Positions 1,296 to 59,251 of a DNA stretch of 64,000 bases are shown here, piece by piece. Both the position numbers and the translations under genes were made by a program. This DNA is from Oegoconia quadripuncta. Taxonomy: Eukaryota > Arthropoda > Insecta > Lepidoptera > Autostichidae. Every line of letters begins with the position of its first letter. Positions within the stretch are counted from its first letter, which is position 1. Under the pieces are notes generated by a model that worked only from the letters and a program-made list of their open reading frames with translations, was not told where the DNA came from and made no database searches. The stretch covers positions 5,813,501 through 5,877,500 of the forward strand of contig OX438754.1 in assembly GCA_949316235.1 (NCBI GenBank). The letters run 5' to 3'.

Positions 1296-1489
1296 CTAAT
1301 CATGGGTGTGCTGATTCTTTGTATTTATGACCACACCGGCATACATACAGACTGACGCGCGACATCCGAACCTTCTCTGGCTACAGAACCATGTAGATTT
1401 GGCACCCCTACTACGATTGTTCCTATGATACCGGAACTGTCCAATATTAAGTACCGCTCGACCGCACCGAGACGTGGTAAAACTGGGAC
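1296..1489 (-). CDS. mod(mdg4): mod(mdg4)-type alternative last exon, FLYWCH finger (exon 1 of window)
   Basis: Encodes 63 residues after a split codon, from the acceptor tgttccgtAG. The FLYWCH finger reads IGQFRYHRN, then STWFC and GCRAS, then NQHTHD before TAG. Predicted zinc ligands are C35, C42, H60 and H62, with the core Trp at 33. This is the transcript-distal end of the array. It shares the NNRS-KG-K spacer with the exons at 5.9 and 10.2 kb, so these three form a subgroup. The FLYWCH fold binds DNA or protein partners; the specific target of this isoform is unknown. No start codon belongs here: it is usable only by splicing to an upstream common exon. Confidence 0.85.
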
Positions 1490-1579
1490 CTACGGAACAG
1501 ATAAAAATATAAAAAAATAGCGACACGATCTCTTTTCCAAATTCAAAATTTTGTTTGACAAGATAAGTCAAAAAATTAC

Positions 1580-1803
1580 GACCGATTGGTGTAGTGGATA
1601 GTGACCCTGTCAGCGAAACCAACGGTTGCGGGTTCGAATCCCGCGAGGGGTAAATGTTTGTATGATGAATATGAACACTTATTCCCGACTCATGGATGTT
1701 TTTATAAATATTTATGTATGTTTATCTGTTATCTAGCACAAGCTTTGCTTCGTTTGGGACTAGATAATTGGTGTAAGTGCCTCAAATATTTATTTATTTA
1801 AAA
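1580..1803 (+). repeat. tRNA-derived SINE, family A
   Basis: The head GACCGATTGGTGTAGTGG..GGTTCGAATCC carries tRNA-like A and B boxes. The body contains ATGTTTGT-TGATGAATATGAAC and GCTTTGCTTCGTTTGGGAC, and it ends in a TATTTATTTATTTAAA tail. It sits just transcript-upstream of the 1.3 kb exon, in the opposite orientation to the gene. Confidence 0.85.
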
Positions 1804-2222
1804 TAAAAAAAATTGTGTTAGAGAGTGACTTGCGTCGCTTCTGCTGCCTGACACTCATTAGGAAGCAATAAGTTACGCTTCTATTTCTGCCCCATGCAAT
1901 GCCCTAAGCTGAAGTTCGACCTTTAGGCGTCGGTAGAAAACTCTTTTACGTGCTATTGCCGACCATCAGAGTATGCGTCCGATCGCAAAGCTAAAAAAAG
2001 CGTCAGCCTTTCTGTTGATAGCTACTGTTGTACGTACCTTTCAAAAACTCACCAGCTGAATCAGTCTGATTAATCTGATGATTAATAATAATAATAAATC
2101 TTTATTGATTTAAATTAGCCTAGTTGGTGTAATTTAACCAATTTCCAATAGGCTGTCTTGGTTAGATTGAATACCCAGACTAGATTTTCCTGTGCTATGG
2201 GAGTCCACGCTCTTCCCAGTTT

Positions 2223-3329
2223 TTGGTACTAATAAGTAAGCAAATTATGTTACATTTAATAATGTATGCAAGCGACCCCATAGTAGTTACCGCCCGGTGC
2301 ACGAGGGTAGGGCTGGAGGACAAGATTCTCAGTATGGCCGATACCATATCGGGAGTTCGCGACGCCGAGAAAGCCTGGGAGGTACCACTTATTAAATGGG
2401 TCAACGGAGTTCCTGGGTGTGGAAAGACTACTTGGGTCGTAAACCACTTCAAAGTGGAGAAAGACATAGTAGTCACCACCACAACCGAAGCGGCTAAAGA
2501 TCTCAGGGAAAGACTGGCGAACCGGATGGGAGCAGACGCCAAAACCAAAGTGCGCACAATGGCCTCAGTCCTCGTAAATGGAATCAGAGACTCCGAGAAG
2601 AGGACAGACGGAAGGCTCATAGTCGACGAGGCCCTAATGAACCACTTTGGTGCCATAGTTATGGCCTCACGTCTGACCGACGCCAGGGAGATAATTCTCA
2701 TCGGCGACATCAACCAGCTGCCGTACATTGACAGGGAAAATTTATTTAAGATGCAGTACAGTCGGCCAAACCTGGTAGCAACCATCAGCCATGAGTTGCT
2801 ATGCACGCACAGGAATCCGCTGGATGTAGCATACGCCCTCAACGAAATCTATAGTGGCATATACTCTTCCAGTTCGCGGGTGCATTCCTTGAGGCTGGAA
2901 CGGTTTACGGGCGCAGAGATACCCACCACCGCCCCGAATACTCTCTTCCTGGTTTATACCCAGGCGGAAAAAGAGATCCTCATAAATCAAGGATACGGGA
3001 CGGGTATAGGGTCACGCGTTCTGACCATACACGAGGCTCAGGGACTGACATACGAGACGGTAAGGATCGTGCGTACCGCGACAGCCAGACTGCAGTTGCA
3101 CAATAGCGTACAGCATGCTGTCGTGGCAGTGTCGCGTCACTCTGTCAGCTGTGTTTACTACGCGGATGACAGGGATGATGCGATGGGCAGGTTTATGCAG
3201 CGGGCAACGGCTGCTTCGACGAAGAGCATTTTAGATTACAATCTGAAAATGGCAATACGCCATCGTGACACAGCGGTCGTGGAAAAGCTGAAAAGGTTTG
3301 GAGAGGGAGGAAGTCAGAACCTCCAATAA
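2223..3329 (+). CDS. Viral-type superfamily 1 RNA helicase, captured or endogenous copy
   Basis: An open frame of 368 codons with the main superfamily-1 helicase motifs of positive-strand RNA viruses in order. Walker A is GVPGCGKTT (62-70), Walker B is VDEA (134-137), motif III is GDINQLP (161-167), followed by THRNPLDVAYAL (195-206), HEAQG (270-274) and VAVSRH (301-306). This resembles the helicases of beny/virga-like viruses. Related helicase domains are known as endogenous copies and as parts of lepidopteran non-LTR retrotransposon proteins. No polymerase, methyltransferase or capsid sequence is visible beside it. Its base composition is clearly GC-richer than the flanks. The native start is unclear: recognisable helicase homology begins near residue 55, so it may be a 5'-truncated insertion. 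The absence of stops suggests a young insertion or selection. It points against the array's strand. Confidence 0.85.
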   Translation: MVLISKQIMLHLIMYASDPIVVTARCTRVGLEDKILSMADTISGVRDAEKAWEVPLIKWVNGVPGCGKTTWVVNHFKVEKDIVVTTTTEAAKDLRERLANRMGADAKTKVRTMASVLVNGIRDSEKRTDGRLIVDEALMNHFGAIVMASRLTDAREIILIGDINQLPYIDRENLFKMQYSRPNLVATISHELLCTHRNPLDVAYALNEIYSGIYSSSSRVHSLRLERFTGAEIPTTAPNTLFLVYTQAEKEILINQGYGTGIGSRVLTIHEAQGLTYETVRIVRTATARLQLHNSVQHAVVAVSRHSVSCVYYADDRDDAMGRFMQRATAASTKSILDYNLKMAIRHRDTAVVEKLKRFGEGGSQNLQ

Positions 3330-3944
3330 CGAGGCACAGTCCATGACAAGCATACAAGATTACACAAGATTATTCTATCACTGCCATTGTACTCACTCCC
3401 ATAGTTAAAAAACGCACCTCCCCTTGAATTGTAATCAGTTGTAATCATCGTGGAAATAAACAAATATTTAAAATTTTACATACCATAATTATATCGAGAA
3501 TAGGAATAAGTAAAAATAATAATAATAAGAATATGACAAAGGGAAGATATGTGTGTATATGTATGTTTATTTATTTTTATTTTATTTGTTTATTTCCAAA
3601 CTTACAACTATCTTTACAGGTTTACCCTAATGCGATAGTGCAGTGAAGACTACTTACAGTAGTTTATTTGTGTATATATGCATACATAAAGAACAAGAAC
3701 TCACTGTTTTAGATTTAAGCATAGTCGTAGTCTTTAGAGTATAAAATGTAAAAAGAGACAAGTTAATTTATAAATTATATTTTTGTAAACAAGAGCACGG
3801 ACCATGTGTCTGTGGAGATTTAAATTACTTAAAAAAAAAAAAAAAAAAAAATAATGTATGCAAAGACTCATTGGTAACCATTCGATGACTGCTAAATTGT
3901 AGAGCCTCGAACACCATCGATAGGCGCCTATCTCGCAGTCTTTT
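3330..3944. other. AT-rich flank of the helicase insertion
   Basis: About 150 bp after the helicase stop could be its 3' untranslated region, with AATAAAC near 3456. After that come AT-rich sequence and an A-run at 3832-3851. No gene was seen. Confidence 0.4.
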
Positions 3945-3947
3945 TAA

Positions 3948-4300: not shown

Positions 4301-4609
4301 CTTTAACAGCAGGGCGAGGTGAGGGCAATGTGAAATGAGTGTTAAACACAATACCCCCTCTTCAACTTCTTCTAAGGTAGGTATGTATTAAAAAAAAGAT
4401 TCAGAAATAAAAATAAAAATATTCACTAATATAATTCATTTAATCGTGCACAATGAAATATACAATTTCATATTAATGTAGGTACTCTAAGTTAAATTTC
4501 CGGTAATCACACACACAAATTGGACGTATTTATATTTGACAACCGAAAACCTGCAACACTGAAACCCTACAGCGCGTGGTAGTGAACGCCTACAAGTAGA
4601 AGATGAGTT

Positions 4610-5640: not shown

Positions 5641-5654
5641 TACATACATACGAC

Positions 5655-5901: not shown

Positions 5902-6104
5902 TCAGGGTAAATGAGAGTGAACATTTTTGAAAATGACGATTTTACCCTCAATAGTGGTTACGGAGGCGTGGCATAAGCCAATCTTTCCTTTAGCACAGAA
6001 CCAGACCACCTTCGATCCTTTACTCCTATTATTCTTGTAGTAACGGTACCCATTATAAATTAGGACGGGTTTGCCGCACCGTGACTTAGTTACGATGCAT
6101 GTAT
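5902..6104 (-). CDS. mod(mdg4): mod(mdg4)-type last exon, FLYWCH finger (exon 2)
   Basis: Acceptor cattatttttccAG, then 66 residues. The finger shows GKPVLIYNGYRYYKNN, VVWFC (W34, C36), LCHAS (C44) and VHSHLP, with ligand histidines 62 and 64 and two extra residues before TGA. The conserved Gly before the second Cys is replaced by Leu, and the usual Arg/Lys after it by His. Otherwise it is a close relative of the exons at 1.3 and 10.2 kb. It is well separated from neighbours: more than 4 kb to either side. Confidence 0.86.
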
Positions 6105-10235: not shown

Positions 10236-10429
10236 TCAGTGGTTATGATTGGGATTAATAGAGACAATAACATTGTTAATTGTTTTGACTGTAGCTTTAC
10301 AGCCTCTACTGGCTGACCGCGAGCACATCCAGAAACCTTTTGCTCCTTTGCTACGATTGTTCTTATTGAATCGGTATGTTCCTACCAGCAGTACCGGTTT
10401 CCCAAACCTGGATATTGTGAATATGGGAC
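10236..10429 (-). CDS. mod(mdg4): mod(mdg4)-type last exon, FLYWCH finger (exon 3)
   Basis: Acceptor gttattttcatttcAG, then 63 residues. Key residues are GKPVLLVGTYRFNKNN, GFWMC (W33, C35), RGCKA (C43) and NPNHNH (H61, H63) followed by TGA. It has one more residue between the two Cys than exon 1. It belongs to the NNRSKGAK subgroup with exons 1 and 2. The stop codon directly follows the last His, as in most exons of the array. Confidence 0.87.
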
Positions 10430-12418: not shown

Positions 12419-12615
12419 TTAAGAATGAGTATGTGTATTGTTCACTTTGATTATAATATTGTCACACGTGTGGATGCTGGAGCGGCAGTTTCCGGTCGCC
12501 CATTTGACGCACCGCCATACACCCTTTGGCCCCTTGCTGCTACTGTGATATCTATTATATCGGTGCCGGCCCATCACTATCACTGGTTTACCGTATCTTG
12601 ACGTGCCAAAGACTG
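12419..12615 (-). CDS. mod(mdg4): mod(mdg4)-type last exon, FLYWCH finger (exon 4)
   Basis: Acceptor gttttaaattacAG, then 64 residues. The finger has GKPVIVMGRHRYNRYH, GVWRC (W33, C35), GNCRSS (C43) and NTHTHS (H61, H63), with one Ser after the last His and then TAA. VWRCVKW is shared with the exon at 42.5 kb, an unusually distant relative compared with the mostly local similarity in this array. Thr replaces Asn between the ligand histidines. Confidence 0.87.
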
Positions 12616-13949: not shown

Positions 13950-14137
13950 CTAATGATTATGTACGTTACTTATTTTGATGACGCTTTCTCCAATGGTCAT
14001 GACCGACACCCGGCAATGTTTCATGAAATGATCGCAAATCCAATACACTTTGGGGCCAACGCACCGGCTGCGTCTATTGTAGCGGTAATCTCCAATTAGC
14101 AGGACTGGCCTGCCGCGCTGGGACTTCGCGAAGATAA
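13950..14137 (-). CDS. mod(mdg4): mod(mdg4)-type last exon, FLYWCH finger (exon 5)
   Basis: Acceptor ccgtttgtattttAG, then 61 residues, among the shortest of the array. The finger has RGRPVLLIGDYRYNRR, VYWIC (W32, C34), KHCRVS (C41) and NVHNH (H59, H61), then TAG. The Gly normally before the second Cys is His. An ATG lies upstream in the same frame, but that stretch is intronic if the acceptor is used. The first residue after splicing would be Val if the donor ends in G. Confidence 0.85.
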
Positions 14138-15252: not shown

Positions 15253-15443
15253 TTAATGGTTATGTTTATTCCTTGCGCTGATGATTTCATGATCAATAGT
15301 AAACAAGGAGGCCCTGCACCCTGATCTCCATTTCGTGCATGGCCACATCACCTTCGAACCCTTGTAGTACGAATGTTTGTTATACCGATAATCACCAATT
15401 TGTATCACTGGTTTACCAAACTTAGATGTTGTATATAAGGCAG
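15253..15443 (-). CDS. mod(mdg4): mod(mdg4)-type last exon, FLYWCH finger (exon 6)
   Basis: Acceptor ctttatttcAG, then 62 residues. Finger: GKPVIQIGDYRYNKHS, VMWPC (W33, C35), KWRSGCRAS (C42), NKHNH (H60, H62), then TAA. It is one of the consensus-like WPCTKW exons together with those at 16.2, 19.8 and 22.0 kb. All the family's conserved positions are present, so it should fold. The foldback element directly beyond its stop may supply or disturb its polyadenylation region. Confidence 0.9.
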
Positions 15444-16180: not shown

Positions 16181-16374
16181 TCAAATATGTGTATGTTTAT
16201 TTCGAAAGAATATAATTTCGTTGTTAAGCGTGGTCACGGATGCTCTACAACCTCTTCGCCATTTGATACAGGGCCATAGGACCTTAGCCCCTTTATATCG
16301 GCTATGTTTGTAGTATCGGAAACCACCGACGTGCATCACAGGGTTATTGAGCCGTGACATTGCGCAGTAAGGGA
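16181..16374 (-). CDS. mod(mdg4): mod(mdg4)-type last exon, FLYWCH finger (exon 7)
   Basis: Acceptor taaatctctcttgcAG, then 63 residues. Finger: NPVMHVGGFRYYKHSRY, VLWPC (W33, C35), RRGCRAS (C42), NKHTHI (H60, H62), then TGA. The usual Gly-Lys before the first beta strand is Asn-Asn. It is closely related to exons 6, 8 and 9 through HSRYKGAKV-WPC-KW. An Ile follows the last His, as in exon 8. Confidence 0.88.
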
Positions 16375-16906
16375 CTGCAAGAGAGATTTATTTACAAAAA
16401 AATATGTACAGGATGGACATTTGCAACACCACTTGTGGATTGCGTCTTAAAAATTCAAAAATATGGTAAAATAAAATCATGCAATTTTTTCTTACAAACA
16501 TATTATAAATAGTGGCCTGAATAATTAAGTAATAGTAGTAGATACATGCAATAAAACATCTACGTACAGTATATCTTTATTATAGATTAGGTACCTTAAT
16601 AAATTACAATAAAGTTATCACAAGGATTCTATATACACACTATGTACACATGGTCAAAGGCGACTAAGGCACTACACACTAAAATAACTATTAAAGTATT
16701 TAGAAACCAAAAAATCGACAGTATAGTTTGTAATTTGCGGACGCGATGTTGGATTTTTTATCTTAAAAATTACAATGACACTCTAGGGATCAAGGCGAAT
16801 CGAACGACACCTTGCATTTCAAAATCCGTCGAACCCTTTTAGGCTACATGAGGTAACATAGAAATCTACATGCATAACACTCGAAAAACATATAAAAAAA
16901 AAAGAA

Positions 16907-18958
16907 AACCCTCCTTTTTGGGGCTGTTGGTTAAAAACATCTACACGTTTCAACGCCGATTGGACTGACGAATGCATTTCTGTATATTTCATTAAAAAAC
17001 AGCCCTCCTTTTTGGGGCTGTTGGTTAAAAACTTAAAAACATCTACACGTTTCAACGCCGATTGGACTGACGAATGTATTTCTGTATATTTCATTAAAAA
17101 AAAAGCCCTCTTTTTGGGGTTGTTGGTTAAAAACTTAAAAACATGTACACGTTTCCACGCCGATTGGACTGACGAATGCATTTCTGTATATTTCATTAAA
17201 AAAAAAAAGAAAACTCTCCTTTTTGGGGCTGTTGGTTAAAAACATCTACACGTTTCAACGCCGATTGGACTGACGAATGCATTTCTGTATATTTCATTAA
17301 AAAAAGCCCTCCTTTTTGGGGCTGTTGGTTAAAAACTTAAAAACATCTACACGTTTCAACGCCGATTGGACTGACGAATGTATTTCTGTAAATTTCATTA
17401 AAAAAAAAGCCCTCTTTTTGGGGTTGTTGGTTAAAAACTTAAAAACATGTACACGTTTCCACGCCGATTGGACTGACGAATGCATTTCTGTATATTACAT
17501 TAAAAAAAAGCCCTCCTTTTTGGGGCTGTTGGTTAAAAACTTAAAAACATGTACACGTTTCAACGCCGATTGGACTGACGAATGCATTTCTGTATATTTC
17601 ATTAAAAAAAAAAAAGAAAACCCTCCTTTTTGGGGCTGTTGGTTAAAAACATCTACACGTTTCAACGCCGATTGGACTGACGAATGCATTTCTGTATATT
17701 TCATTAAAAAAAAAAAAGAAAACCCTCCTTTTTGGGGCTGTTGGTTAAAAACTTAAAAACATATACACGTTTCAACGCCGATTGGACTGAAGAAGGCATT
17801 TCTGTATATTTCGTTAAATAAAAAATAAAAAAAAACCCTCCTTTTTGGGGCTGTTGGTTAAAAACATCTACACGTTTCAACGCCGATTGGACTGACGAAT
17901 GTATTTCTGTAAATTTCATTAAAAAAAAAGCCCTCTTTTTGGGGTTGTTGGTTAAAAACTTAAAAACATGTACACGTTTCCACGCCGATTGGACTGACGA
18001 ATGCATTTCTGTATATTACATTAAAAAAAAGCCCTCCTTTTTGGGGCTGTTGGTTAAAAACTTAAAAACATGTACACGTTTCAACGCCGATTGGACTGAC
18101 GAATGCATTTCTGTATATTTCATTAAAAAAAAAAAAGAAAACCCTCCTTTTTGGGGCTGTTGGTTAAAAACATCTACACGTTTCAACGCCGATTGGACTG
18201 ACGAATGCATTTCTGTATATTTCATTAAAAAAAAAAAAGAAAACCCTCCTTTTTGGGGCTGTTGGTTAAAAACTTAAAAACATATACACGTTTCAACGCC
18301 GATTGGACTGAAGAAGGCATTTCTGTATATTTCGTTAAATAAAAAATAAAAAAAAACCCTCCTTTTTGGGGCTGTTGGTTAAAAACATCTACACGTTTCA
18401 ACGCCGATTGGACTGACGAATGTATTTCTGTAAATTTCATTAAAAAAAAAGCCCTCTTTTTGGGGTTGTTGGTTAAAAACTTAAAAACATGTACACGTTT
18501 CCACGCCGATTGGACTGACGAATGCATTTCTGTATATTACATTAAAAAAAAGCCCTCCTTTTTGGGGCTGTTGGTTAAAAACTTAAAAACATGTACACGT
18601 TTCAACGCCGATTGGACTGACGAATGCATTTCTGTATATTTCATTAAAAAAAAAAAAGAAAACCCTCCTTTTTGGGGCTGTTGGTTAAAAACATCTACAC
18701 GTTTCAACGCCGATTGGACTGACGAATGCATTTCTGTATATTTCATTAAAAAAAAAAAAGAAAACCCTCCTTTTTGGGGCTGTTGGTTAAAAACTTAAAA
18801 ACATATACACGTTTCAACGCCGATTGGACTGAAGAAGGCATTTCTGTATATTTCGTTAAATAAAAAATAAAAAAAAACCCTCCTTTTTGGGGCTGTTGGT
18901 TAAAAACATCTACACGTTTCAACGGCGATGGGACTGACGTGTGCATTACTGTATATTT
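16907..18958. repeat. Minisatellite of ~100-bp units with 521-bp higher-order repeat
   Basis: About 20 units with the core CGTTTCAACGCCGATTGGAC, TGACGAATGCATTTCTGTAT and TTTTTGGGG-TGTTGGTTAAA, separated by A-runs. From about 17.4 kb a five-unit block repeats with a 521-bp period nearly without change (equivalent points at 17495, 18016 and 18537). The last unit is divergent (CAACGGCGATGGGACTGACG). Long open frames on both strands are by-products of the repeat. The core matches, in reverse complement, the dispersed repeat at 26.63-26.70 kb. Confidence 0.95.
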
Positions 18959-19065
18959 CGAAAGGTGAACTCATGTTACGCACAGCTTCTATTATTATTG
19001 AGAGACTGGGGCATGCTAGCCGTACTCGTTACATCACGATGGCCGTCATTTCCGATCTCGATATA

Positions 19066-19829: not shown

Positions 19830-20026
19830 CTAAATGTGATTGTGTTCATTTCTGCACTGGACAATTTGACCATTATAAGTGGTAAGCGACGCTCTGCAGT
19901 TGGTCGTCTTCCATTTGGTGCATGGCCACAATACTTTCGCACCTTTATACTGAGTATGCTTATTGTACCGGAAAGGGCCCATCTGAATTAAAGGCTTCCC
20001 ACGACGAGACGTCGTGTATATGATGT
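19830..20026 (-). CDS. mod(mdg4): mod(mdg4)-type last exon, FLYWCH finger (exon 8)
   Basis: Acceptor atttatattcacAG, then 64 residues. Finger: TSRRGKPLIQMGPFRYNKH, VLWPC (W33, C35), TTNCRAS (C43), NEHNHI (H61, H63), then TAG. The start IIYTTSRRGKP is close to VYTTSQRGKP of the exon at 22.0 kb, its nearest relative here. It lies beside the minisatellite, which separates this pair from exons 6 and 7. Confidence 0.9.
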
Positions 20027-21973: not shown

Positions 21974-22164
21974 TTAATGATTGTGTTGATTTCTACATCG
22001 CACTATTTCATCGTAGAATGTAAACACCGAAGCCCTACAGCCAGCCGACTGCCACTTGGTGCATGGCCACATTACTTTGGCGCCTGTATACCGGCTGTGT
22101 CGGCCGTATCTGTATTTACCAATCTGTATAAGGGGTTTGCCGCGCTGTGACGTCGTATACACAA
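21974..22164 (-). CDS. mod(mdg4): mod(mdg4)-type last exon, FLYWCH finger (exon 9)
   Basis: Acceptor atttaacttttcacAG, then 62 residues. Finger: QRGKPLIQIGKYRYGRHS, VMWPC (W32, C34), SAGCRAS (C42), NQHNH (H60, H62), then TAA. It is nearly consensus throughout. In transcript order it is the FLYWCH exon that immediately follows the three psq exons. Confidence 0.9.
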
Positions 22165-22932: not shown

Positions 22933-23102
22933 TCACTTCCTATTCAGTCTCTTCCAAAGCGTCATCACGGGTAATTTGAACAATGTACTTGCTTCTTTAT
23001 AAGCCATGCCTTGATTAACGGCACTCACAGCGATACTCATGGTTGCTTCATCCCAAGCAACTGGTCCAGGTTTCCTGCCCCTCTTTTTAGGCCCAGGTAT
23101 TG
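22933..23102 (-). CDS. psq-type helix-turn-helix last exon (a)
   Basis: Acceptor cattttatttcAG and the same phase-1 start, then 55 residues and TGA. A basic leader PGPKKRGRKPGP (AT-hook-like GRKPGP) is followed by WDEATMSIAVSAV, GMAYKEAST, then FKLPVMTLWKRL: the pattern of a pipsqueak-family helix-turn-helix. In Drosophila, psq domains occur in BTB proteins, where they bind GAGA-like DNA. It lies in series with the FLYWCH exons, same strand and phase, so I infer it is an alternative last exon of the same gene. Confidence 0.82.
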
Positions 23103-24724: not shown

Positions 24725-24966
24725 CTATAACGCCTTACCAGCATCATTTTTATCCGCTTCGATGACCTGGACATTTTGGGGCTCTAGATTATGTAGACCT
24801 AATTTCACTTTTCTCCATATATCTGTTTGGGGCACACCGAATACTCTACTAGCCATTGCGTATGTTGTGCCTCGCTTAACAGCTGTAAGAGCCATGTTCA
24901 TGGCTGTTTCTCCATCCCAGATTCGTGGTCTAGGTTGCCTGCCTTTCTTTTTCTGGACAAGACGTG
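24725..24966 (-). CDS. psq-type helix-turn-helix last exon (b)
   Basis: Acceptor tatttttattttAG, phase-1 start, then 79 residues and TAG. Basic leader RLVQKKKGRQPRPR, then WDGETAMNMALTAV, GTTYAMASRVFGVP and DIWRK complete the helix-turn-helix. A tail of about 28 residues (HNLEPQNVQVIEADKNDAGK) follows, longer than in exon a. The second helix AMASRVFGVP is nearly identical to that of psq exon c, so b and c are recent duplicates. A DNA-binding isoform is likely; attribution to the FLYWCH gene rests on position and phase. Confidence 0.82.
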
Positions 24967-26165: not shown

Positions 26166-26371
26166 CTATAATGTCATACCAGTCTTCCTATTCGCTTGAA
26201 TAGTCTGTAGAATACATGGATCTGAATTCGCTTTTCTCCATAGAGTCATCGGGGGCACCCCGAAAACTCTGCTAGCCATTCTGTACGGTATGCCTTCTTT
26301 TACAGCTGCAAGAGCTATTTCCATCGATTCTTCACTCCAACTATGTTCTCCACGTTTGTGGCGAGGTTTTT
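26166..26371 (-). CDS. psq-type helix-turn-helix last exon (c)
   Basis: Acceptor gtttttttattttAG, phase-1 start, then 67 residues and TAG. Leader KPRHKRGEHS, then WSEESMEIALAAV, GIPYRMASRVFGVP and MTLWRK form the helix-turn-helix. A tail of about 20 residues ends GMTL. The exon starts with AA after the acceptor, so a common donor ending in T would create a stop here: a small constraint on the shared upstream exon. It is the first psq exon in transcript order. Confidence 0.83.
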
Positions 26372-28473: not shown

Positions 28474-28664
28474 TCAGTGATTATGTTGATATCTGCTATC
28501 AACAATCATATCATCGACTGTAGTGACGGCAGCTTTACAATCGGTTGACCTCCTCTTGTTGCAGATCCAGTATCGTGTCCTGCCAGCGGCACGTGTGAAG
28601 TTGTACCGGTATTTGCCGTGGTCAATCACTGGCTTCCCACGTTTAGATACCCCGAAGCTGGGGC
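28474..28664 (-). CDS. mod(mdg4): mod(mdg4)-type last exon, FLYWCH finger (exon 10)
   Basis: Acceptor tttatttttcaaAG, then 62 residues. Finger: KRGKPVIDHGKYRYNFTR, RYWIC (W32, C34), TDCKAAVTTV (C42), YQHNH (H60, H62), then TGA. It belongs to a tight subgroup with the exons at 30.3 and 31.9 kb (KYRYNFTR, WxCNKR), which share even the acceptor context TTTTTCAAAG. The stop codon overlaps a polyadenylation hexamer (CACTGAATAAA), so the 3' untranslated region can be very short. A 5S-derived SINE begins right beyond. Confidence 0.9.
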
Positions 28665-30322: not shown

Positions 30323-30510
30323 TCAGTGACTATGTCGGTTTTTCATATAAATAATCATGTTGTCCACTGTAGTAACGGAAGCTTTACAATTGGCCGATCT
30401 CCTTTTGTTGCAGAGCCAAAACCGTCTCTGTCCACAGATTCGAGTGAAATTGTATCTGTATTTGCCATACTCGACCACTGGATTTCCTCGGTTAGACACC
30501 CCGAATACCG
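30323..30510 (-). CDS. mod(mdg4): mod(mdg4)-type last exon, FLYWCH finger (exon 11)
   Basis: Acceptor gttttatttttcaaAG, then 61 residues. Finger: NRGNPVVEYGKYRYNFTR, FWLC (W31, C33), ANCKASVTTV (C41), NRHSH (H59, H61), then TGA. About 72% of positions match the exon at 31.9 kb when aligned by eye without gaps: a recent tandem duplicate. Ser replaces Asn between the His ligands in both. Confidence 0.9.
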
Positions 30511-31918: not shown

Positions 31919-32106
31919 TCAGTGACTATGAGGATTTTTCATCTTTAAAATCACGTTCTCCATTGTAGTAACAGAAGCCTTACAATTGGCCGATTTCCTT
32001 TTATTGCAATGCCAATACTTTCTCCGTCCACATATTCGAGTGAAGTTGTATCTGTATTTTCCACATTGGACTACTGGATTTCCTCGGCAAGACAACGGGA
32101 ATGTCA
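31919..32106 (-). CDS. mod(mdg4): mod(mdg4)-type last exon, FLYWCH finger (exon 12)
   Basis: Acceptor gtttatttttcaaAG, then 61 residues. Finger: CRGNPVVQCGKYRYNFTR, KYWHC (W31, C33), ANCKASVTTM (C41), NPHSH (H59, H61), then TGA. Sister of exon 11. It carries extra Cys at residues 6 and 14, which are not conserved ligand positions. In transcript order it is the first of the three-exon KYRYNFTR cluster. Confidence 0.9.
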
Positions 32107-34122: not shown

Positions 34123-34316
34123 CTAGTGATTATGACTATTCTTCGTACTAATTATACTATTATAGACGGTGGTGACGGACGCTGAACACCCTGTTGTCCT
34201 CCGTTTGTTACACAACCACTGCACTTTGAGTCCTCTGTAGCTGTTCTGATAATATCTATAATGTCCGTGCTGGATCACTGGTTTGCCTTTCCTTCTAGAT
34301 CTTGTAAATATTGGCA
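34123..34316 (-). CDS. mod(mdg4): mod(mdg4)-type last exon, FLYWCH finger (exon 13)
   Basis: Acceptor gcggttatttattctAG, then 63 residues. Finger: KGKPVIQHGHYRYYQNS, VQWLC (W33, C35), TTGCSAS (C43), NSHNH (H61, H63), then TAG. Ser replaces the usual Arg/Lys right after the second Cys. CNKRR after the first Cys links it to the 28.5-31.9 kb subgroup, but the N-terminal half is different. Confidence 0.88.
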
Positions 34317-36155: not shown

Positions 36156-36361
36156 CTAATGATTGTGCTTGTTCTTAGCCCTTATAACCATTTCGTTGTA
36201 GGTCACGACAGAAGCCCTGCAGCCATTCTTGGTCCATTTCTCGCATAACCACTGCTCTTCATTTTTGTCGAACCGACTGAAGCGTTGTCGATGGTAACGG
36301 TACTGTCCCACATTTAGTACCGGCCTCCCGCGTATTGAAAGCGAATACCACGCTTTTTTTG
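36156..36361 (-). CDS. mod(mdg4): mod(mdg4)-type last exon, FLYWCH finger (exon 14)
   Basis: Acceptor ctttaatttcAG, then 67 residues. Finger: GRPVLNVGQYRYHRQR, EEQWLC (W37, C39), KNGCRAS (C47), NKHNH (H65, H67), then TAG. A loop of about four extra residues (FDKNEE) precedes the Trp compared with exons 6-9. The exon begins with a lysine-rich KKAW stretch. Otherwise it is complete. Confidence 0.89.
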
Positions 36362-36535: not shown

Positions 36536-37195
36536 GCCTCCTGATTCTCGCGCATTCAATATTTTAAAGGCGACATATCGATGTATATAAGTGTGAAAGG
36601 GTTAACAGTGAAATGTCAAGTGCGCGAAAATCGGGGACCAGGAGCCTGATTCTCGCGCAATCGTGATTTTAGTGTTGATAAACATCAATAAGTATGTCAC
36701 ATATCTATGGACAGCGAAATGTCGAGTGAGCGATAATAGTGGTTCAGGACCCCGATTCTCGTGCGTTCGAGATTTCACTGTCGATAGACATTGGTATAAC
36801 TATCTCTTTCGTACTAATAAGGGCGTGCAAAAGTGACAAACCTATGGATGTCTATCGACCGTAAATGTCGAACGCACGAGAATCGGGGTCCAGGGCCCCG
36901 ATTCTCGCGCGTTCGACATATCACTGCCGATAGACATTGGTATGTCTATCTCTTTCACACTTACAAGCATGTGCAAAAGCGACAGATCTATGGATGTCTA
37001 TCGACAGAGAAATGTCGAATGCGCGAGAATTGGGGTCCAGGAGCCTGATTCTCACGCATTCGACATTTGACTGTCGATGAACATCAATAGATCTGTCACT
37101 TTTGCAGTCTCATGTAAGTGTGAACGAGATAGACATGCCAATGTCTATCTACAGTGAAATGTCGAGTGCGCGAGAATCTGGGTCCTATAGATTTA
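36536..37195. repeat. Tandem array of palindromic units
   Basis: Five consecutive units of about 105-148 bp. Each begins with GATTCTCGCGCATTCGACAT and ends with its inverted copy ATGTCGAATGCGCGAGAAT, so every unit can form a hairpin. Inner arms also pair (GTCGATAGACAT / ATGTCTATCGAC). CpG content is far above the surroundings. The third and fourth units are best preserved. Confidence 0.85.
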
Positions 37196-38770: not shown

Positions 38771-38973
38771 CTATGTATGGTTATGTACATTATTGATCTT
38801 GACAATATCATTTTGCACTGAGGTAATGGAACTTCTACAACCACTGCTCCATTTTCCGCAGACCCATAGGCATTTTGGGTGGTCTTTCTTATAGCTACTA
38901 TGGCGGTAGTATCGAAAATCTCCGATTTGAAGTATAGGTTTCCCTTTTCTAGACTGTAGTATAACTATTTGAT
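38771..38973 (-). CDS. mod(mdg4): mod(mdg4)-type last exon, FLYWCH finger (exon 15)
   Basis: Acceptor atttttaatttccacAG, then 66 residues. Finger: RKGKPILQIGDFRYYRHS, KCLWVC (W36, C38), SSGCRSS (C45), NVHNHT (H63, H65), then TAG. Three extra residues (DHP) sit before the Trp, with an additional Cys at 34. The N-terminal QIVILQS lacks the usual Thr-Ser pair. Confidence 0.88.
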
Positions 38974-40645: not shown

Positions 40646-40740
<95 letters not shown>

Positions 40741-40751
40741 CCACGCAAGTA

Positions 40752-40839
<88 letters not shown>
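40646..40839. repeat. Symmetric CA / GCAC / CA alternating tract
   Basis: About 194 bp: (CA)n, then (CGCA)n, one 15-bp interruption (CACCACGCAAGTACG), (CGCA)n, then (CA)n. Except at the interruption it alternates purine and pyrimidine throughout, the base pattern that favours Z-DNA. Cys/Val/Arg-only open frames over it are artefacts. Confidence 0.95.
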
Positions 40840-42494: not shown

Positions 42495-42682
42495 TTAGTG
42501 ATGATGTTCATCGAACACTTTCACCAGGCAACTGTTCTGGGTTTTCAGAGTGGCTCGGCAACCATCACTCCATTTGACACACCGCCATACAGCATTGGGA
42601 CCTCTCTCACTGTGTCGATTGTATCGACCCTCCCCTAACAAAATCACTGGTCGACCATACTTTGATGTCGTGTATACTGGAA
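42495..42682 (-). CDS. mod(mdg4): mod(mdg4)-type last exon, FLYWCH finger (exon 16)
   Basis: Acceptor agaaacctttcttttAG, then 61 residues. Finger: SKYGRPVILLGEGRYNRHS, VWRC (W32, C34), DGCRAT (C41), DEHHH (H59, H61 with an extra His between), then TAA. The aromatic residue normally before Arg-Tyr is Gly (GEGRY). The VWRCVKW block matches the exon at 12.4 kb. Confidence 0.88.
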
Positions 42683-43959: not shown

Positions 43960-44153
43960 TTATGTGTGATTGTGTTCATTTCTGATTTTGACAATCTCGT
44001 TCAGATAAGTCTTTATCGATGCTCTGCAGCCCAACGGCCACTTGACACAGACGAACAAACCCTTATCACCTTTGCTGGTGCTATGCTGATTGAAACGACG
44101 GCCATGGAGGAGTATCACCGGTTTACCTTGACTTGAGAATGTGTATGTGGCGC
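43960..44153 (-). CDS. mod(mdg4): mod(mdg4)-type last exon, FLYWCH finger (exon 17)
   Basis: Acceptor gttattcgtattccAG, then 63 residues. Finger: SQGKPVILLHGRRFNQHS, GLFVC (C35), PLGCRAS (C42), NEHNHT (H60, H62), then TAA. The core Trp two residues before the first Cys is Phe33, the same change as in the exon at 47.9 kb. All zinc ligands are present, so the finger can still form. Val-Lys-Trp after the first Cys links it to exons 4 and 16. Confidence 0.87.
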
Positions 44154-44904: not shown

Positions 44905-45245
44905 ATTTCATCCTAAATACAGAGACTAATTCGGCATACAATGATGGGAGGCTTGGTTCTGTTAATTCAAATATCCTAGACTAATTCAGCATACATTGCT
45001 GGGAGGCTTGGTTCTGTTAATTCAGATATCCTAGACTAATTCGTCATACATTGCTGGGAGGCTTGGTTCTGTTAATTCAGATATCCTAGACTAATTCGTC
45101 ATACATTGCTGGGAGGCTTGGTTCTGTTAATTCAAATATCCTAGACTAATTCGGCATACATTGCTGGGAGGCTTGGTTCTGTTAATTCAAATATCCTTAC
45201 TTTAATCAGCAATGTATGCCGAATTAATCTCTGCATTTAGGATGG
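44905..45245. repeat. ~54-bp minisatellite inside inverted ends
   Basis: Five units of CTAATTCGGCATACATTGCT..GGAGGCTTGGTTCTGTTAAT (about 44.93-45.20 kb). The array is framed by inverted copies of CATCCTAAATACAGAGACTA..ATTCGGCATAC at 44909 and 45203-45243. The unit begins with the same ATTCGGCATAC that forms the end, so a MITE appears to have expanded internally. Confidence 0.8.
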
Positions 45246-47867: not shown

Positions 47868-48028
47868 TTAATGATTGTGTTCGTCGTTGCAGTTGATGAT
47901 GACGTCGTTGCGAGTAGTGATGCTAGCTCCGCAGCCAGAGGCCCTCATGCGGCAAACAAAACGCTTCTTCGATCCTTTGCTAGTGTCCAATAGAAACTGA
48001 TACTCGCCAATTTGGATCAATGGCTTAG
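47868..48028 (-). CDS. mod(mdg4): mod(mdg4)-type last exon, N-shortened FLYWCH finger (exon 18)
   Basis: Acceptor tattgattatttcttAG, phase-1 start, then only 52 residues. It opens directly at KPLIQIGEYQF, so the usual eight to ten residues before Lys-Pro (such as TTSRRG) are absent. Finger: KKRFVC (Phe23 instead of Trp, C25), SGCGAS (C32, Gly instead of Arg/Lys), DEHNH (H50, H52), then TAA. It is the shortest intact-looking exon. It may be a working variant or the first stage of decay; the frame and all four ligands are still intact. Confidence 0.78.
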
Positions 48029-48039: not shown

Positions 48040-48585
48040 TCAATAACATAAAGATTACACAGTTTTCTCTGAGATAGAATAAAAAAATATCTAACATAAG
48101 TTCTGATTCAACTTAACAAAAAAAAGAAAAAAATATTGTCATTTTTAATGACTGGTTCAATGGGGTATTAGGTAACTGAAGCAGAAGGTCGTAGTAACTT
48201 ACAATATAATGAAAATATCACATCCTGCAAAAAAGCCTTGTCTATAGTCTGCAAATATTTTGTTAAATGATTCGCCGGCGGCGCTCAAAGGCCTTAAAAC
48301 TTTCATTTACTTCCGCTTCACTTAACTAATAATAATATAACTTTCAATATTAAATAAGACATTTATTCACCACAAAGTCAATTTGACATCGAAAATGAGT
48401 GATACACCACGAAACGTGTAACGAATTTTGTAGCTTAACATAGAATGTAATGAAGATGTATTTTTAGTCTCCCAACGCAAATAAATTGCTACCACCAAAG
48501 AATGGCAAATTTTTCAAAAACCTTTTATTTTCTTAATTTATATATTACAATATTTGCACCCTACAGCAGGGTGTGCAGACGTAAG
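48040..48585. other. Interval without recognisable gene
   Basis: AT-rich spacer, no exon or transposon end identified. Confidence 0.4.
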
Positions 48586-49064: not shown

Positions 49065-49267
49065 CTAATGATTATGTACTTCAGAACGAATTACTACATT
49101 ATCCTCAATTGTCGCCAAGTAGGCTTTACAACCCCATTTCATTCTGGTGCAAGGCCAACGTTTCTTTAATGATTCCTTCCGACCATTTCTTTTTTGACAA
49201 TAGTACATACGTTTACCAATCTTGATCATCAAATTACCAAATTTCGACATCACGAAAACAGGAACAT
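49065..49267 (-). CDS. mod(mdg4): mod(mdg4)-type last exon, FLYWCH finger (exon 19)
   Basis: Acceptor atatcttctgtttccAG, then 66 residues. Finger: SKFGNLMIKIGKRMYYCQ, KKRWPC (W37, C39), KWGCKAY (C46), EVHNH (H64, H66), then TAG. Asn-Leu replaces Lys-Pro, and the strand after the Gly reads KRMYY rather than YRY. It begins the KKRW-C subgroup, found only at the transcript-proximal end (49-59 kb). A longer basic loop (KRNGRKESLKKR) precedes the Trp. Confidence 0.87.
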
Positions 49268-50040: not shown

Positions 50041-50139
50041 ATAAATAAAAAAAAGGCAATTCACACAAGCTTAATTGAAGTTGTCAATAAGAATATTAGT
50101 AATTAGTGAAGATTTGTTATATCTTTAAAATTGTGTTGA

Positions 50140-50320
50140 TTATTTGTCATGGTTATGCTCATTGAACTGACGATGGTGTTGTCAACTATAATAGCAGAGG
50201 CTCTAAAGCCATTTGAAGACTTAATACAGCCCCATCCGTCTCTGCCCACAACGCCGTCTTCTAATTTCTTGGCTTTTTAAATCTTGTTGTCGTGCTTTGG
50301 TAGAGTAAAATGTGGTGTAT
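50140..50320 (-). pseudogene. mod(mdg4): Dead FLYWCH exon, tandem sister of the 51.3 kb exon
   Basis: It clearly aligns with the intact exon at 51.3 kb: TPHFTL, GCIKSSNGFRAS, and codons for the NEHNHD end. Four independent lesions are visible. The acceptor has changed from ctAG to ctGG (sister: gtctAG before ATACACCACA). A TAA stop follows within 14 codons (after KHDNKI). The second zinc Cys is Phe (GFRAS). A shift of frame separates the middle from the histidine end, and about 20 residues are shortened. It can no longer be spliced or fold as a finger. Confidence 0.88.
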
Positions 50321-50324: not shown

Positions 50325-51270
50325 ATAACAAAGATTACGTTTGATTAGCTTAACTCAAATAGGAAAATCTGATATTCAAACTGTCTTATTTATCACAAGT
50401 CTAGTACCGAAAACTGTCAGGAAATTTCCCTAAAAAGTAAAATATCTGCTTGACAGTTTTCAACCCCATTTAAACAGAACAGGGATTCAAAACGTCAAAG
50501 ATTTTTAATTTTGTCAGGGGTATTAAACTGCCAAACAGGTTTTGCAGACTTTCACGAGGAGACATTTCCTGGAAACTTTCTGAAAACCAGAATATTATAG
50601 GGATTAAATATGTTGTTAATTTGTTCGCAAAGACTTGATATTTACCAAGTTTCAGACAAATTTTCTATACTCCAGGAGTTTTTTTTGAATATTTCGACAG
50701 CTTTCAACAATACACAAGACTCAAGTAGCCGAAACATAATAATGCTATTATTACTGCTGCTTGTTTTATATTATGCGAAAATTGTGCATTTGTATTGATT
50801 TCTGAATTTGCAATTAATCAGCATCGCGTGGTGTTCTCCTTAGTGTTATCAGAGCCTCGTTTTATGAGAAATATTCCTAGAATTTTCCTGTGCTTAAAAC
50901 TAGAAAAATCTGTAGCCTCAACATTAGCATTAACCATTCAAATATTCAAAAATTCCAACATTACCGTTGTCCTAGAATGTTATTAATTTATGATTAATCC
51001 CCACTTTAACACTTGTGCTCATTCCGACATCTATTGACTGCTGAGTACCATTTGAATATAATCTGTAGAGTAATTCTATTTATCCATTTAGATGAAAAAG
51101 TAAAGAAAAAAAAAGAAAAATCCCTTTATTGCATTCAAAGAACATAAATATAAAGAGAGAGGCTTAGTCGAACTTGTCATAGGGATGTTACAAGAAGTTG
51201 ATTAGTGAAAATCTTTAAACATTAAAACAGTATCATTCTCTAGCAATATATTACTTATTTTGCTTAATCG
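50325..51270. other. Interval without recognisable gene
   Basis: 50.36-50.60 kb contains repeated TCAGGAAATTTCC / TTTCCTGGAAACTTTC-like pieces. Short plus frames at 50610-50986 have no domain. Confidence 0.4.
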
Positions 51271-51274: not shown

Positions 51275-51489
51275 TCAGTGGTTATGCTCATTGAGACATC
51301 TGACCACGACGTCATTAATCGTAAGGACATGGGCTTTGCAGCCACCTGAAGACTTGATGCAGACCCATCTGTCTTTACGCACGATACCGTCACTTTTTTG
51401 GCCACCTCTTGGTTTTTGGAAACTGAATTTATTATTGCCAATTTTAATCATCCTGTTACCGAACCTTGATATGGTAAATTGTGGTGTAT
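51275..51489 (-). CDS. mod(mdg4): mod(mdg4)-type last exon, FLYWCH finger with long loop (exon 20)
   Basis: Acceptor gaatatttttgtctAG, then 70 residues, the longest FLYWCH exon in the window. Finger: SRFGNRMIKIGNNKFSFQ, DRWVC (W41, C43), SGGCKAH (C50), NEHNH (H68, H70), then TGA. The loop before the Trp is expanded by about eight residues (PRGGQKSDGIVRK). It is the living sister of the dead exon at 50.1 kb. Confidence 0.89.
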
Positions 51490-53054: not shown

Positions 53055-53260
53055 CTAATGATTGTGTACGTTGTAACATTTTACAAATTCATCTTCAAAC
53101 GTTATAATAAAGGCTCGACAGCCATTCCAGCAATGTGTGCACACCCATCTCTTTTTCAGGACAGGTTCCACTTGCCTTTTCCTTTTAAGGTAACTGAAGC
53201 GATAACGACCTACTTTAATCATCGGGTTCCCCTGAGAAGAAGACACGTATACCGGAACAT
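53055..53260 (-). CDS. mod(mdg4): mod(mdg4)-type last exon, FLYWCH finger (exon 21)
   Basis: Acceptor tttgttgcgcttttAG, then 67 residues. Finger: SQGNPMIKVGRYRFSYLK, LKKRWVC (W38, C40), WNGCRAF (C47), NVHNH (H65, H67), then TAG. It matches the exon at 53.7 kb at about 64% of positions over the whole length without gaps, including the VEP-LK loop, and lies only 420 bp from it. Clearly a tandem duplicate. Confidence 0.9.
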
Positions 53261-53678: not shown

Positions 53679-53884
53679 TTAATGATTATGTACATTGTTA
53701 TATCTTATGAATTGGCCATTTAGTGTTGTAATAGACGCTCGACAGCCGTTCGAGCAGTATGTGCACACCCATCGCTGTTTCAGTGCAGGTTCCACTTGCC
53801 CTTTCCTTCTGTGGCAACTAAAACGATAGCTACCGATTTGAATCATCGGGTTACCCTGAGCAGAACACACGTATGCCGGAACAT
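53679..53884 (-). CDS. mod(mdg4): mod(mdg4)-type last exon, FLYWCH finger (exon 22)
   Basis: Acceptor acgtatttgttgtAG, then 67 residues. Finger: AQGNPMIQIGSYRFSCHR, LKQRWVC (W38, C40), SNGCRAS (C47), NVHNH (H65, H67), then TAA. Sister of exon 21, with a more basic HRRKG loop and two extra Cys (6 and 23). This is the most compact pair of exons in the array. Confidence 0.9.
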
Positions 53885-55205: not shown

Positions 55206-55212
55206 TACAATA

Positions 55213-55409
55213 TTAATGACTATGTTCATGAGTATATTTAATGATAACGTCATCAATGGTTATGATGGTGGCTCTACAGCCCCGTGACCAACTGCTGCAA
55301 ACCCAGCGCTTCTTGCAAGCATTGCTGGTATGCGCGTGCAAACTGAAGTTGTATCGACCGCATTTTAACATCCTGTTCCCTCGGTGCGACGTTATAAAAT
55401 GAGCCTGAC
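55213..55409 (-). CDS. mod(mdg4): mod(mdg4)-type last exon, FLYWCH finger (exon 23)
   Basis: Acceptor ctttaattttatcAG, then 64 residues. Finger: HRGNRMLKCGRYNFSLH, KKRWVC (W35, C37), SRGCRAT (C44), HEHSH (H62, H64), then TAA. Asn-Arg replaces the Lys-Pro of other subgroups, and YNF replaces YRY/YRF. An extra Cys (31) precedes KKRW. Confidence 0.89.
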
Positions 55410-56208: not shown

Positions 56209-56405
56209 TTAATGATTATGAACGTCCTTATGTTTAACAATTTCATCCCCTATGGTGACTATGTATGCTCGACAATTGCGACGCGACCAGCACCCGCATA
56301 ACCAACGTTTCTTCAAAGCGCCTGCGGCACTATTCAAACCAAAACGATACTTGCCAAGTTGAATGATCCGGTTGCCTTTGCTTGACCATATAAATGTAGG
56401 CAACT
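56209..56405 (-). CDS. mod(mdg4): mod(mdg4)-type last exon, FLYWCH finger (exon 24)
   Basis: Acceptor gttcttatttttttAG, then 64 residues. Finger: SKGNRIIQLGKYRFGLNS, LKKRWLC (W34, C36), RRNCRAY (C44), DVHNH (H62, H64), then TAA. It starts with AG after the acceptor, so a common donor ending in T would give a stop; a donor ending in G gives Glu. Consensus-like within the KKRW-C subgroup. Confidence 0.9.
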
Positions 56406-56409
56406 CTAA

Positions 56410-56845
56410 AAAAATAAGAACTTAGTTTTAATTTGTGTAGCTTTGTACGACCTTTTCTATTGGGCCTGTAGACACTTTAACTTCCTATAATTCTCAATAT
56501 TATATTTGTGTTATGTTTATTTTTGAGACAACATTTGTTTATGGAGGAGCGAGACTTCCTGATACAAGTATCTTAATACTTACTAGGAGGTCTCAACCCT
56601 CGATCGAGTTATAGTATTGTGCGAAACGAAATAAACATTTTTTTTTTTTTTATATAATCTTAAGGGCCGCGATTTTTTGTATGCAGTTAATCTACTAGTC
56701 TATGTTTTATTACTAAATATCTATATTATACCTAAAATAAACTACAGGATGGTTATATAACATTATTCTACTATTGGTGGTTGCCCTATCCTTCTACAAA
56801 AAATCAGAAACTTTAAGATAATAGGAAGTTACTGGATACCGTACC
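56410..56845. other. Interval without recognisable gene
   Basis: T-run at 56638-56650; AT-rich, no exon. Confidence 0.4.
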
Positions 56846-56849
56846 AACC

Positions 56850-57168
56850 ATATACGAGTTTGCACTTAACCTCGTCACACCTGATGTTAAGTGAAGATGA
56901 GGCCGAAAGTGGAAGCGAGCTCACCCGGAACCCCAATCTTGTTTTGGGGGACTGGCTATCTTATACAACCGGAACACAACAATGCTGTTAACATTGCTGT
57001 TTGATGGCAGACTCAGATAAGATGGCGATAACTAGCCAGGGCGACATTTAAAATGCCGTACCGCCAACCAAACCGAGTAAACATATACCCCGCTGGGAAA
57101 CGAACCCGCGACCTCCGATTATGGACACCTAAACACTATGTTGTTTACATTGAGCCACGGAGGCAGTA
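56850..57168 (-). repeat. tRNA-like SINE, family C
   Basis: Minus copy with head GCCTCCGTGGCTCAATGTAA and B box GCGGGTTCGTTTCCCAGCGG. Body as at 32.3 and 38.1 kb. Confidence 0.85.
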
Positions 57169-57189
57169 ATCGTATTGATAATCATTTGC

Positions 57190-57600
57190 TATCGGAGTGC
57201 TGTGTGGTTTCGGCACTCAAGTAGAATAGAACCAACCCGTCTCTTTCCGTGGGTGTCGTAAAAGGCGACTAAGGGACTTTCCACCAAAACCCATCTAAAG
57301 ATTTGCACGTTTCAACGGCGAGCGCGGGAGCGAACAAACTAGCCCTAATTCGTCTATCATGGAGTTCCAGTCCCGATATCCCGGCTCCATCATCAGATCA
57401 GCTCGATGGTACCATAATATTGCATTGTCACCGAACTTATGCCAAATTTGAGCTCAATCAGATACTGCTGAGCTGGAACCTATATCAGCTTCCATTATTA
57501 TGTTTTTGTATTATTATCTCAAAATTTTCATGTATAAACAGCAACATACTTAACTGCCCATTAAAGACGGAACTAAGAGGCAATATTACTGTTCGAAAGG
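57190..57600. repeat. Dispersed lepidopteran repeat
   Basis: GGGTGTCGTAAAAGGCGACTAAGGGACTTT, with ATTTGCACGTTTCAACGGCG (satellite-core relative), followed by CAGCTCGATGGTACCATAAT and TTGAGCTCAATCAGATACTG. An open frame of 100 codons at 57303-57605 has no domain. Confidence 0.5.
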
Positions 57601-57758
57601 GATAGATGTCTGTCAATTTCAATGTTGTCGCAAGTTATCCAAAGGAATGATTCGTAATTCGGTCGTATTGCAACTCTGTTTTATCGACACAATGTTGCAC
57701 ATAAAATAAAAATAATGTGAGTAAAATAATAATGATAAACGATTGCTTTTATTTAGAG

Positions 57759-57840
57759 TGTGTTGTTATGACAGTCGATTTTTATCGACTGTCATAACAA
57801 CACATATTACTCGGTACTGTTTTCAGTACCGAGTAATATG
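57759..57840. repeat. Two abutting perfect hairpins with TTTT loops
   Basis: The first stem is TGTGTTGTTATGACAGTCGAT, loop TTTT, then its exact inverse (57759-57804). The second stem is CATATTACTCGGTACTG, loop TTTT, then its exact inverse (57803-57840). The two share the CA at 57803-57804. Both stems are perfect, 21 and 17 bp. They stand 43 bp from the left end of the P-like element. Confidence 0.95.
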
Positions 57841-57883
57841 TCTGATTAATGTAAAACGAAAACAAACGGCTCTATGACCGAAG

Positions 57884-58762
57884 CATGGACTTATTATTTA
57901 AACAGGACTGATAACTATCAAAAGAATCATTTAGGAAAATGATCACTATGTCAACGCAATAAGGTATTAAATTGGATGCACCATACACAAAGGCAAATCC
58001 GAGCCGAGAGAGATAGAAATAACGGAGGCCGTGTGTCTCGTTCTTACATCTTGCCAGCAAAAAAAATGATTATGATCAACAGTTTTGGCTACTCAAAAAT
58101 TCCATTGAAACACTTATATTTTTGTGTTATTTTAACAATTATAAATAAACAAATAACATTCGCATTAATTTCTTTTCATATATTCTTAAATCAAACAGAA
58201 AACATACATTTTTATTTCGATTTTGTTATTTTTATGGTAACCCTGAAAAGCATGTCATGTCATGGCGGTTCGGTGTGATTTTGAATTTTCTTTGCATTAA
58301 AAGTTTTTTAAAGTATTTGTTATATTATAACAAGTAAAAGGAGTAAAATGGTGAAAAAGTGTTGCGTTTATACTTGCCCAAGTGAATCCTATGGTGGTTG
58401 CAACATATCTTTCCACAGGTAAGCTAAAAATAATATTTTTGTAAATCAAAGAAGTAGGATGCCCATGAATTCTTGAAATGAGTCGAAATATGTGAAATAT
58501 GTGTGATTGATTAGGGTCCTGACTGTTGTACTATTATTGCAGTTTCCCAAAAAATGAAGAAATGCGAAATAAATGGCTCACGCCAGCTAATGTCAAAACG
58601 CCAAAGTTTTTTGACAAATATTTTATTACAACATTTGTCCCAAGTAACAAATATATTGTGGTCACCCTGTTAGACAGAGACAAACGGCCTCTACGTTACA
58701 CATCCTGCTCGGCTCGTTTTTCAGCGGCGAGTACTCAGTCCTGTTTAAATAATAAGTCCATG
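57884..58762 (+). mobile_element. P-element-like transposon, internally deleted
   Basis: Perfect 28-bp inverted ends, CATGGACTTATTATTTAAAC-AGGACTGA, at both edges. They are flanked by GACCGAAG (57876-57883) and GACCCAAG (58763-58770), an 8-bp target duplication with one mismatch. Ends starting with CA, an 8-bp duplication and an internal THAP coding segment together fit the P superfamily. At 879 bp it is far shorter than a complete element and lacks the catalytic region. Confidence 0.82.
58348..58620 (+). pseudogene. THAP DNA-binding domain remnant of P-like transposase
   Basis: Exon 1 starts MVKKCCVYTCPSESYGG and ends at a donor GTAAGC (58419). Exon 2 follows the acceptor ATTATTGCAG at 58541-58542 and continues SFPKNEEMRNKWLTPANV. 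The C-x-x-x-C pair, the FH-FPK motif and the Trp are those of a THAP zinc finger; the phase across the intron is consistent. The closing Cys-x-x-His expected downstream is missing where the element is deleted. No transposase catalytic domain remains. Confidence 0.78.
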
Positions 58763-59057
58763 GACCCAAGTTACCCGATTTAATAACCCGACGAAATTAA
58801 GTGAAGTTGCTTAGCCACTAGCTAGGATTCATAACTGTCAACGTCAATTGCGAGTCTCTTTCCTGCAATGTGTCAGGAACAAAAATGTATAATTAAGTGT
58901 GTTGCTGTTTGTACATGCTCATTGTAAGCTGAATAAAATGTTTTCTTTCATTCTTTCTATACCAGCAAGTGGTTGAAAAATAGGTTACAAGAAATGCTGT
59001 CGGGTTTTTTTTGACTTTTAAACCTATATTGTTATAAATATTTAAATCCGTAATCCG

Positions 59058-59251
59058 TTAGTGATTATGCATATTGTTATATTTCACTATTTCATTATCG
59101 ACAGTCGTTAGGGATGCTCGACACCCTCGCACCCACACACTGCATAGCCAGCGCTGTTTGTTGCTCGTACTTCTCCCATTCGAGTGGTAACGGTATTGTC
59201 CAACCTTTATCATCCAGTTGCCTCTATTAGTTTTTATGAATTCCGGTTCAT
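59058..59251 (-). CDS. mod(mdg4): mod(mdg4)-type last exon, FLYWCH finger (exon 25, transcript-proximal)
   Basis: Acceptor tgctttttatttttAG, then 63 residues. Finger: NRGNWMIKVGQYRYHSNG, KQRWLC (W34, C36), VRGCRAS (C43), NNMHNH (H61, H63), then TAA. It is the first specific exon in transcript order inside the window. Upstream on its strand follow the DIRS-like element and the window edge, so the common BTB exons must be reached across at least 4.7 kb. Confidence 0.89.

Follow-up and report, generated by a model that had tools for sequence, protein, structure and literature searches.

Twenty-eight co-oriented FLYWCH and psq exons in a moth, very probably the 3′ acceptor region of a mod(mdg4) locus

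In insects, the mod(mdg4) gene joins one shared BTB part to one of many alternative last exons, and in flies it does so by trans-splicing (PMC4667647, PMC11426971, PMC12692577; statements from the literature here and below refer to excerpts of the cited papers). Across six species of Diptera and Lepidoptera the published numbers of acceptor combinations are 31, 9, 40, 41, 35 and 34, FLYWCH is found in most tails of the five species for which its share is stated, and the acceptor repertoires have been ascribed to duplication within each order (PMC4667647). The ligands of FLYWCH domains may be DNA, RNA or proteins (PMC11426971), and a list of silkworm genes places BTB-FLYWCH genes on one chromosome, with neither mdg4 nor psq mentioned in the excerpt (PMC4033408). 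Here we describe a 64-kb stretch of DNA from the moth Oegoconia quadripuncta (contig OX438754.1, positions 5,813,501 to 5,877,500; “the window”, within which all coordinates below are counted) that contains an array of 28 exons, E1 to E28, and very probably represents the acceptor side, at the 3′ end, of a mod(mdg4) locus of lepidopteran type.

In the proposed arrangement, the BTB domain would be encoded by shared 5′ exons that close with a phase-1 donor, its final base being G; on the minus strand these exons would be located past coordinate 64000, unless they are elsewhere. To this donor one of 27–28 mutually exclusive last exons would be spliced, in cis or in trans, and each would supply the stop codon and its own C-terminal domain, which would be FLYWCH in 25 exons and a psq helix-turn-helix (HTH) in three. 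The BTB donor of this species, the splicing and the recognition of targets by the tails are what we infer; a role for the tails as a DNA-binding diversity cassette, as put forward in an earlier sequence-only reading of the window, is plausible.

Domains, relatives and the junction rule

The window was cut at stops in all six frames and scanned for domain frames, using a FLYWCH hidden Markov model (HMM) trained on 23 frames picked by pattern. The minus strand yielded 25 FLYWCH frames, each at E ≤ 2e-17, with the next match being a fragment at 50103–50276 (E 2e-4), and on the plus strand the best match had an E of 0.36. The four of these 25 frames that were run against Pfam all passed the cut-off of PF04500, and a C, C, H, H set is invariant in all 25. 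Three more minus-strand frames lie above the PF05225 (psq) cut-off, at 25.6, 23.3 and 21.4 bits against 20.4; pattern search gave none of them, and they were located by a psq consensus and then confirmed with Pfam. Another 65 open reading frames (ORFs) of the window gave four weak single matches in Pfam, the best at E 2.5e-4, and neither FLYWCH nor psq was among them. HMM and Pfam together confirm the 25 FLYWCH and three psq minus-strand exons of the sequence-only reading; FLYWCH occupies most of the variable tails. A fold predicted for E23 (25 rows, pLDDT 92.7) had as its best match in the PDB the FLYWCH domain of FLYWCH1, 2rpr (E 5e-3, TM 0.72), and no PDB match at E ≤ 0.001.

The array runs from the low end of E28 to the acceptor of E1 (1296..59251, about 58 kb, all on the minus strand). 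With the acceptors listed below, each of the 28 exons follows an AG, has a length of 3n+2 bases (161–242 nt) and reads open to a single terminal stop of its own, just as had been proposed.

Homology connects these exons to known BTB isoforms. A query made by joining seven of the exons found eight proteins at E ≤ 1e-3, all of them named from Lepidoptera and two of which carry both BTB and FLYWCH. A larger set of relatives was assembled with the BTB part of one protein (P0006, residues 1–285) as query, keeping the best 120 of the 3117 proteins that reached E ≤ 1e-20. Of these 120, 119 are named, all from Lepidoptera, with isoform numbers reaching X50 among those listed. Lepidopteran mod(mdg4) proteins share one N-terminal part and are entered in the databases as ‘protein tramtrack, beta isoform’, as ‘modifier of mdg4’ or as uncharacterised. 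Gene models from Lepidoptera that combine the name ‘tramtrack, beta isoform’ with this N-terminal part are thus probably mod(mdg4). Twenty-five of the 28 exons match tails of the 120 listed isoforms at E ≤ 1e-3, supporting the mod(mdg4)-type reading, and in the other direction the window HMM matches 97 of the 120 tails at 1e-3. Psq, homeobox, BED and pogo-type transposase tails occur among the remaining 23, in database gene models rather than proven transcripts. In five lepidopteran models (P0035, P0069, P0076, P0087 and P0106) the tail that follows the same BTB part at GDAQ is a pogo-type transposase, a homeobox or psq; such tails are either captured domains or gene-model errors. In a tree of the 25 window domains and 90 from relatives, based on 62 columns and with 46 of its 102 inner branches open, the window rows are interspersed with those of the relatives, supported branches forcing at least 5 of the 12 changes, and they cluster more than shuffled labels do (12 changes vs a mean of 21.9).

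A further comparison concerns the residue at the junction. The shared part ends in GDAQ in all 120 listed BTB isoforms, and the residue directly after it is G in 44, V in 28, D in 20, A in 14 and E in 14. With G as the last base of a phase-1 donor no other residues can arise, and the rule that such a donor allows only Gly, Asp, Ala, Val or Glu, deduced from the window sequence, held in 120 of 120 listed relatives. The P0006 query region ran four residues (GPTI) past the junction and may favour G-starting tails in the ranking, but this overrun does not account for the 76 tails beginning with another residue. In the window exons a donor G would yield D in 8, A in 7, V in 6, G in 5 and E in 2. 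A donor T would make stops in two exons, E17 with its lead AA and E2 with its lead AG; the exclusion of T holds, resting on these two.

Splice phase, exons and neighbouring elements

For the phase test, the AGs from 150 nt upstream to the domain start were ranked by a fixed acceptor score that takes no account of phase, and the best open AG was kept. This procedure chose a two-base lead in 27 of the 28 exons, compared with leads of 0, 1 and 2 in 35, 38 and 37 of 116 other ORFs (six had no open AG). When the search is extended into the conserved domain the two-base lead drops to 24 of 28, as AGs within the domain outscore in E4, E5 and E24 and E8 is still out of phase. The binomial probability of at least 27 of 28 at one-third is 2.5e-12, a figure that counts paralogues as independent, which they are not, and that overstates the surprise because FLYWCH exons inherit their phase as paralogues. 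The earlier view that such agreement is hard to get by chance 28 times was accordingly too strong, many of the exons being tandem duplicates. The independent part of the signal is that the unrelated psq exons are in the same phase (3/3) and that no exon except E8 has lost it. The distance from acceptor to anchor is 23, 26, 29 or 32 nt in 24 of the 25 FLYWCH exons (39 in E8 from 48068), but these three-nucleotide steps restate the phase result and are not separate evidence.

In E8 (47868..48028) two acceptors compete: the in-phase one at 48028 scores 1.6 and the lead-0 one at 48068 scores 6.6, and splicing at 48028 would leave a FLYWCH domain that lacks its first strand. The exon was at one point taken to be out of phase, its best acceptor having lead 0, and this was revised once the acceptor at 48028 was found. 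Its phase is ambiguous, which is a real doubt about the shared phase. A single phase for all 28 exons, as originally claimed, therefore stands for 27 against an even control, and the description of the exons as intact stands in that all 28 are open to one stop, with E8 doubtful in its in-phase form.

The remaining FLYWCH last exons were placed by HMM and acceptor score, and they follow here in descending coordinates. At the high end lie E1 (59058..59251, lead AT), E2 (56209..56405), E3 (55213..55409), the duplicates E4 (53679..53884) and E5 (53055..53260; dN 0.18, dS 0.57 between the two), E6 (51275..51489) and E7 (49065..49267). Past E8 come E9 (43960..44153), in which F replaces W, E10 (42495..42682), which has a higher-scoring acceptor in the same phase at 42676, E11 (38771..38973), E12 (36156..36361) and E13 (34123..34316). 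The tree adds support for two local families, of which one comprises E14 (31919..32106), E15 (30323..30510) and E16 (28474..28664), and the other E20 (21974..22164), E21 (19830..20026), E22 (16181..16374) and E23 (15253..15443), the last backed by its predicted fold. Between the families, side by side and flanked by two FLYWCH exons, are the psq last exons: E17 (26166..26371), E18 (24725..24966), which has a phase-1 donor-like GT just before its stop, and E19 (22933..23102), all three assigned by Pfam and acceptor score. The array closes with E24 (13950..14137), E25 (12419..12615, with a second same-phase acceptor at 12612), E26 (10236..10429), which is 63% identical to an isoform tail of Pectinophora, E27 (5902..6104) and E28 (1296..1489). 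The sequence-only reading had left one element off this list, a decayed FLYWCH copy at 50130..50318 on the same strand, which the HMM recovers with an in-frame stop and a recognisable C-terminal half and whose nearest exon is E6 (E 1.6e-7). At 51015–51089 (minus strand) there is also a weak FLYWCH-like match to E20 (E 0.018), perhaps a second relic.

The array has grown largely by tandem duplication, and its exons are under purifying selection. Adjacent FLYWCH exons share a mean identity of 47%, vs 38% over all pairs, a value reached in 0 of 20000 shuffled orders. In all 24 adjacent FLYWCH pairs pN is below pS; E14 and E15 differ by dN 0.17 and dS 0.41, and dS is saturated in several other adjacent pairs.

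Other elements lie among and beside the exons. On the plus strand between E28 and E27, an open frame of 381 codons (2184–3329) matches the viral superfamily 1 RNA helicase PF01443 (E 9e-30), and the large subunits of two viral replicases (E 1e-29), which we take to be tobamoviral, are all that it matches in the PDB at E ≤ 0.01; a virga-like RNA virus has probably left this frame behind as an endogenous fragment. Overlapping long retroelement frames with reverse transcriptase and RNase H occupy 59978–63685 on the plus strand, antisense to the array and at its 5′ side. Tandem arrays are found at 16893–18959 (units of about 102 and 419 bp), 36704–37185 (146-bp units) and 44923–45197 (five 55-bp units, 96% matches), and a (CACG)n tract at 40647–40836.

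Competing explanations and the psq triplet

Several observations weigh against a mod(mdg4) acceptor region. No BTB exon lies within the 64-kb window. An ATG is present inside the exon in 22 of 28 cases, and truncated stand-alone products are compatible with the sequence. Poly(A) hexamers are no commoner than at random places, being present in the 300 nt downstream of 17 of 28 exons vs a random mean of 16.0, and identity to the best tail among relatives is just 37–63%. None of the three psq exons matches a lepidopteran tail at E ≤ 1e-3 among the 120 listed, and no psq relative appeared at E ≤ 1 among 179 candidates, the latter search being a weak one that needs shared five-residue words and a fitting length. 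A separate point bears on whether exons might be chained: internal GT donors scoring above 3.5 are present in seven of the 28 exons (E8 measured from 48068), in phase 1 in E18 (6.4), E28 (4.3) and E21 (3.9).

The alternative that survives best is a sub-case of the proposed locus, in which several independent acceptor units are trans-spliced to the BTB transcript and there is no single long pre-mRNA. Trans-splicing has been published for Drosophila, Bombyx, Danaus and Plutella (PMC4667647; PMC12692577), and we lean towards this version, although all 28 exons share one orientation, so the geometry does not demand it.

A second possibility is that the exons are separate small genes, each with private upstream coding exons and a promoter, and that their common phase was inherited by tandem duplication. 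Adjacent FLYWCH exons are indeed tandem paralogues, so phase is heritable, and in Drosophila the mod(mdg4) acceptor exons have promoters of their own (PMC12692577). However, relatives carry such tails behind a single BTB part, always at the same junction (120 of 120 listed), the unrelated psq exons share the phase in 3 of 3, and only E6, E24 and E26 have an in-frame ATG in the interval from the preceding stop to the acceptor, leaving 25 of the 28 exons with none. With the internal ATGs counted above, an upstream coding exon would therefore be needed nearly always for a full domain, and we regard separate genes as very unlikely. Less probable still is a dead array of FLYWCH copies, to which the decayed copy at 50130–50318 and the truncated E8 might point, but in which 28 open exons and pN below pS in every adjacent pair would not be expected.

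Within the mod(mdg4)-type locus that we favour, the psq triplet is the least familiar part, with no close relative found in the searches above. The three exons are 41–47% identical to one another. E18 and E19 have a basic stretch before the HTH, which in E19 may be AT-hook-like. The predicted fold of E17 (three rows, pLDDT 74.4) consists of helices only and has no PDB match at E ≤ 0.001; the LCoR HTH ranks first, but its E of 1.1 is not significant (TM 0.55). A literature search confined to openly licensed papers found no psq tails of mod(mdg4) in the excerpts of those papers; since that is its scope, and since psq gene models exist in the relatives P0106 and P0035, we make no claim to a first report. 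The chances seem to us evenly balanced that E17–E19 make up a second class of DNA-binding last exon, short and transposase-free, which came into the mod(mdg4) array and was duplicated in place, so that one locus would give rise to BTB-psq as well as BTB-FLYWCH proteins. Should the psq exons be in use, a single locus can swap between two unrelated DNA-binding folds.

Comparison with described systems

The closest described system is lepidopteran mod(mdg4), in which a common BTB part carries alternative FLYWCH tails; the window shares homologous exons with it and, given a donor G, would share the junction residues G, V, D, A or E. The repertoire is of the same order as the 40 of Danaus and the 41 of Plutella (PMC4667647); it is large, as the sequence-only reading held, but not unusual against the 9 to 41 published in six species (PMC4667647). 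The layout differs from that of Danaus, where 24 acceptor genes are spread over both strands and 550 kb (PMC4667647), compared with 28 exons on one strand over 58 kb here. The short psq triplet is a further difference, a close match to it not having been found in the relatives searched.

Drosophila mod(mdg4) likewise has a shared BTB part, with 31 isoforms of which 26 carry FLYWCH (PMC4667647), but its acceptors lie on both strands and trans-splicing has been demonstrated, whereas orientation here is uniform. In Drosophila lola, too, one BTB part is combined with many alternative last exons; there 17 of 20 isoforms have C2H2 zinc-finger tails (PMC11426971), in contrast to the 28 of 28 FLYWCH or psq exons of the window. 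The use of E17–E19 would result in a BTB domain followed by HTH_psq, as in the BTB-psq proteins of the Pipsqueak group. Members of that group have psq encoded in a BTB gene of its own, whereas here it would be a swappable last exon.

Taken together, the array of a BTB protein's swappable last exons can be recognised from DNA alone through their common splice phase, and the one described here is a fine example of a kind already published (PMC4667647) rather than a new kind.

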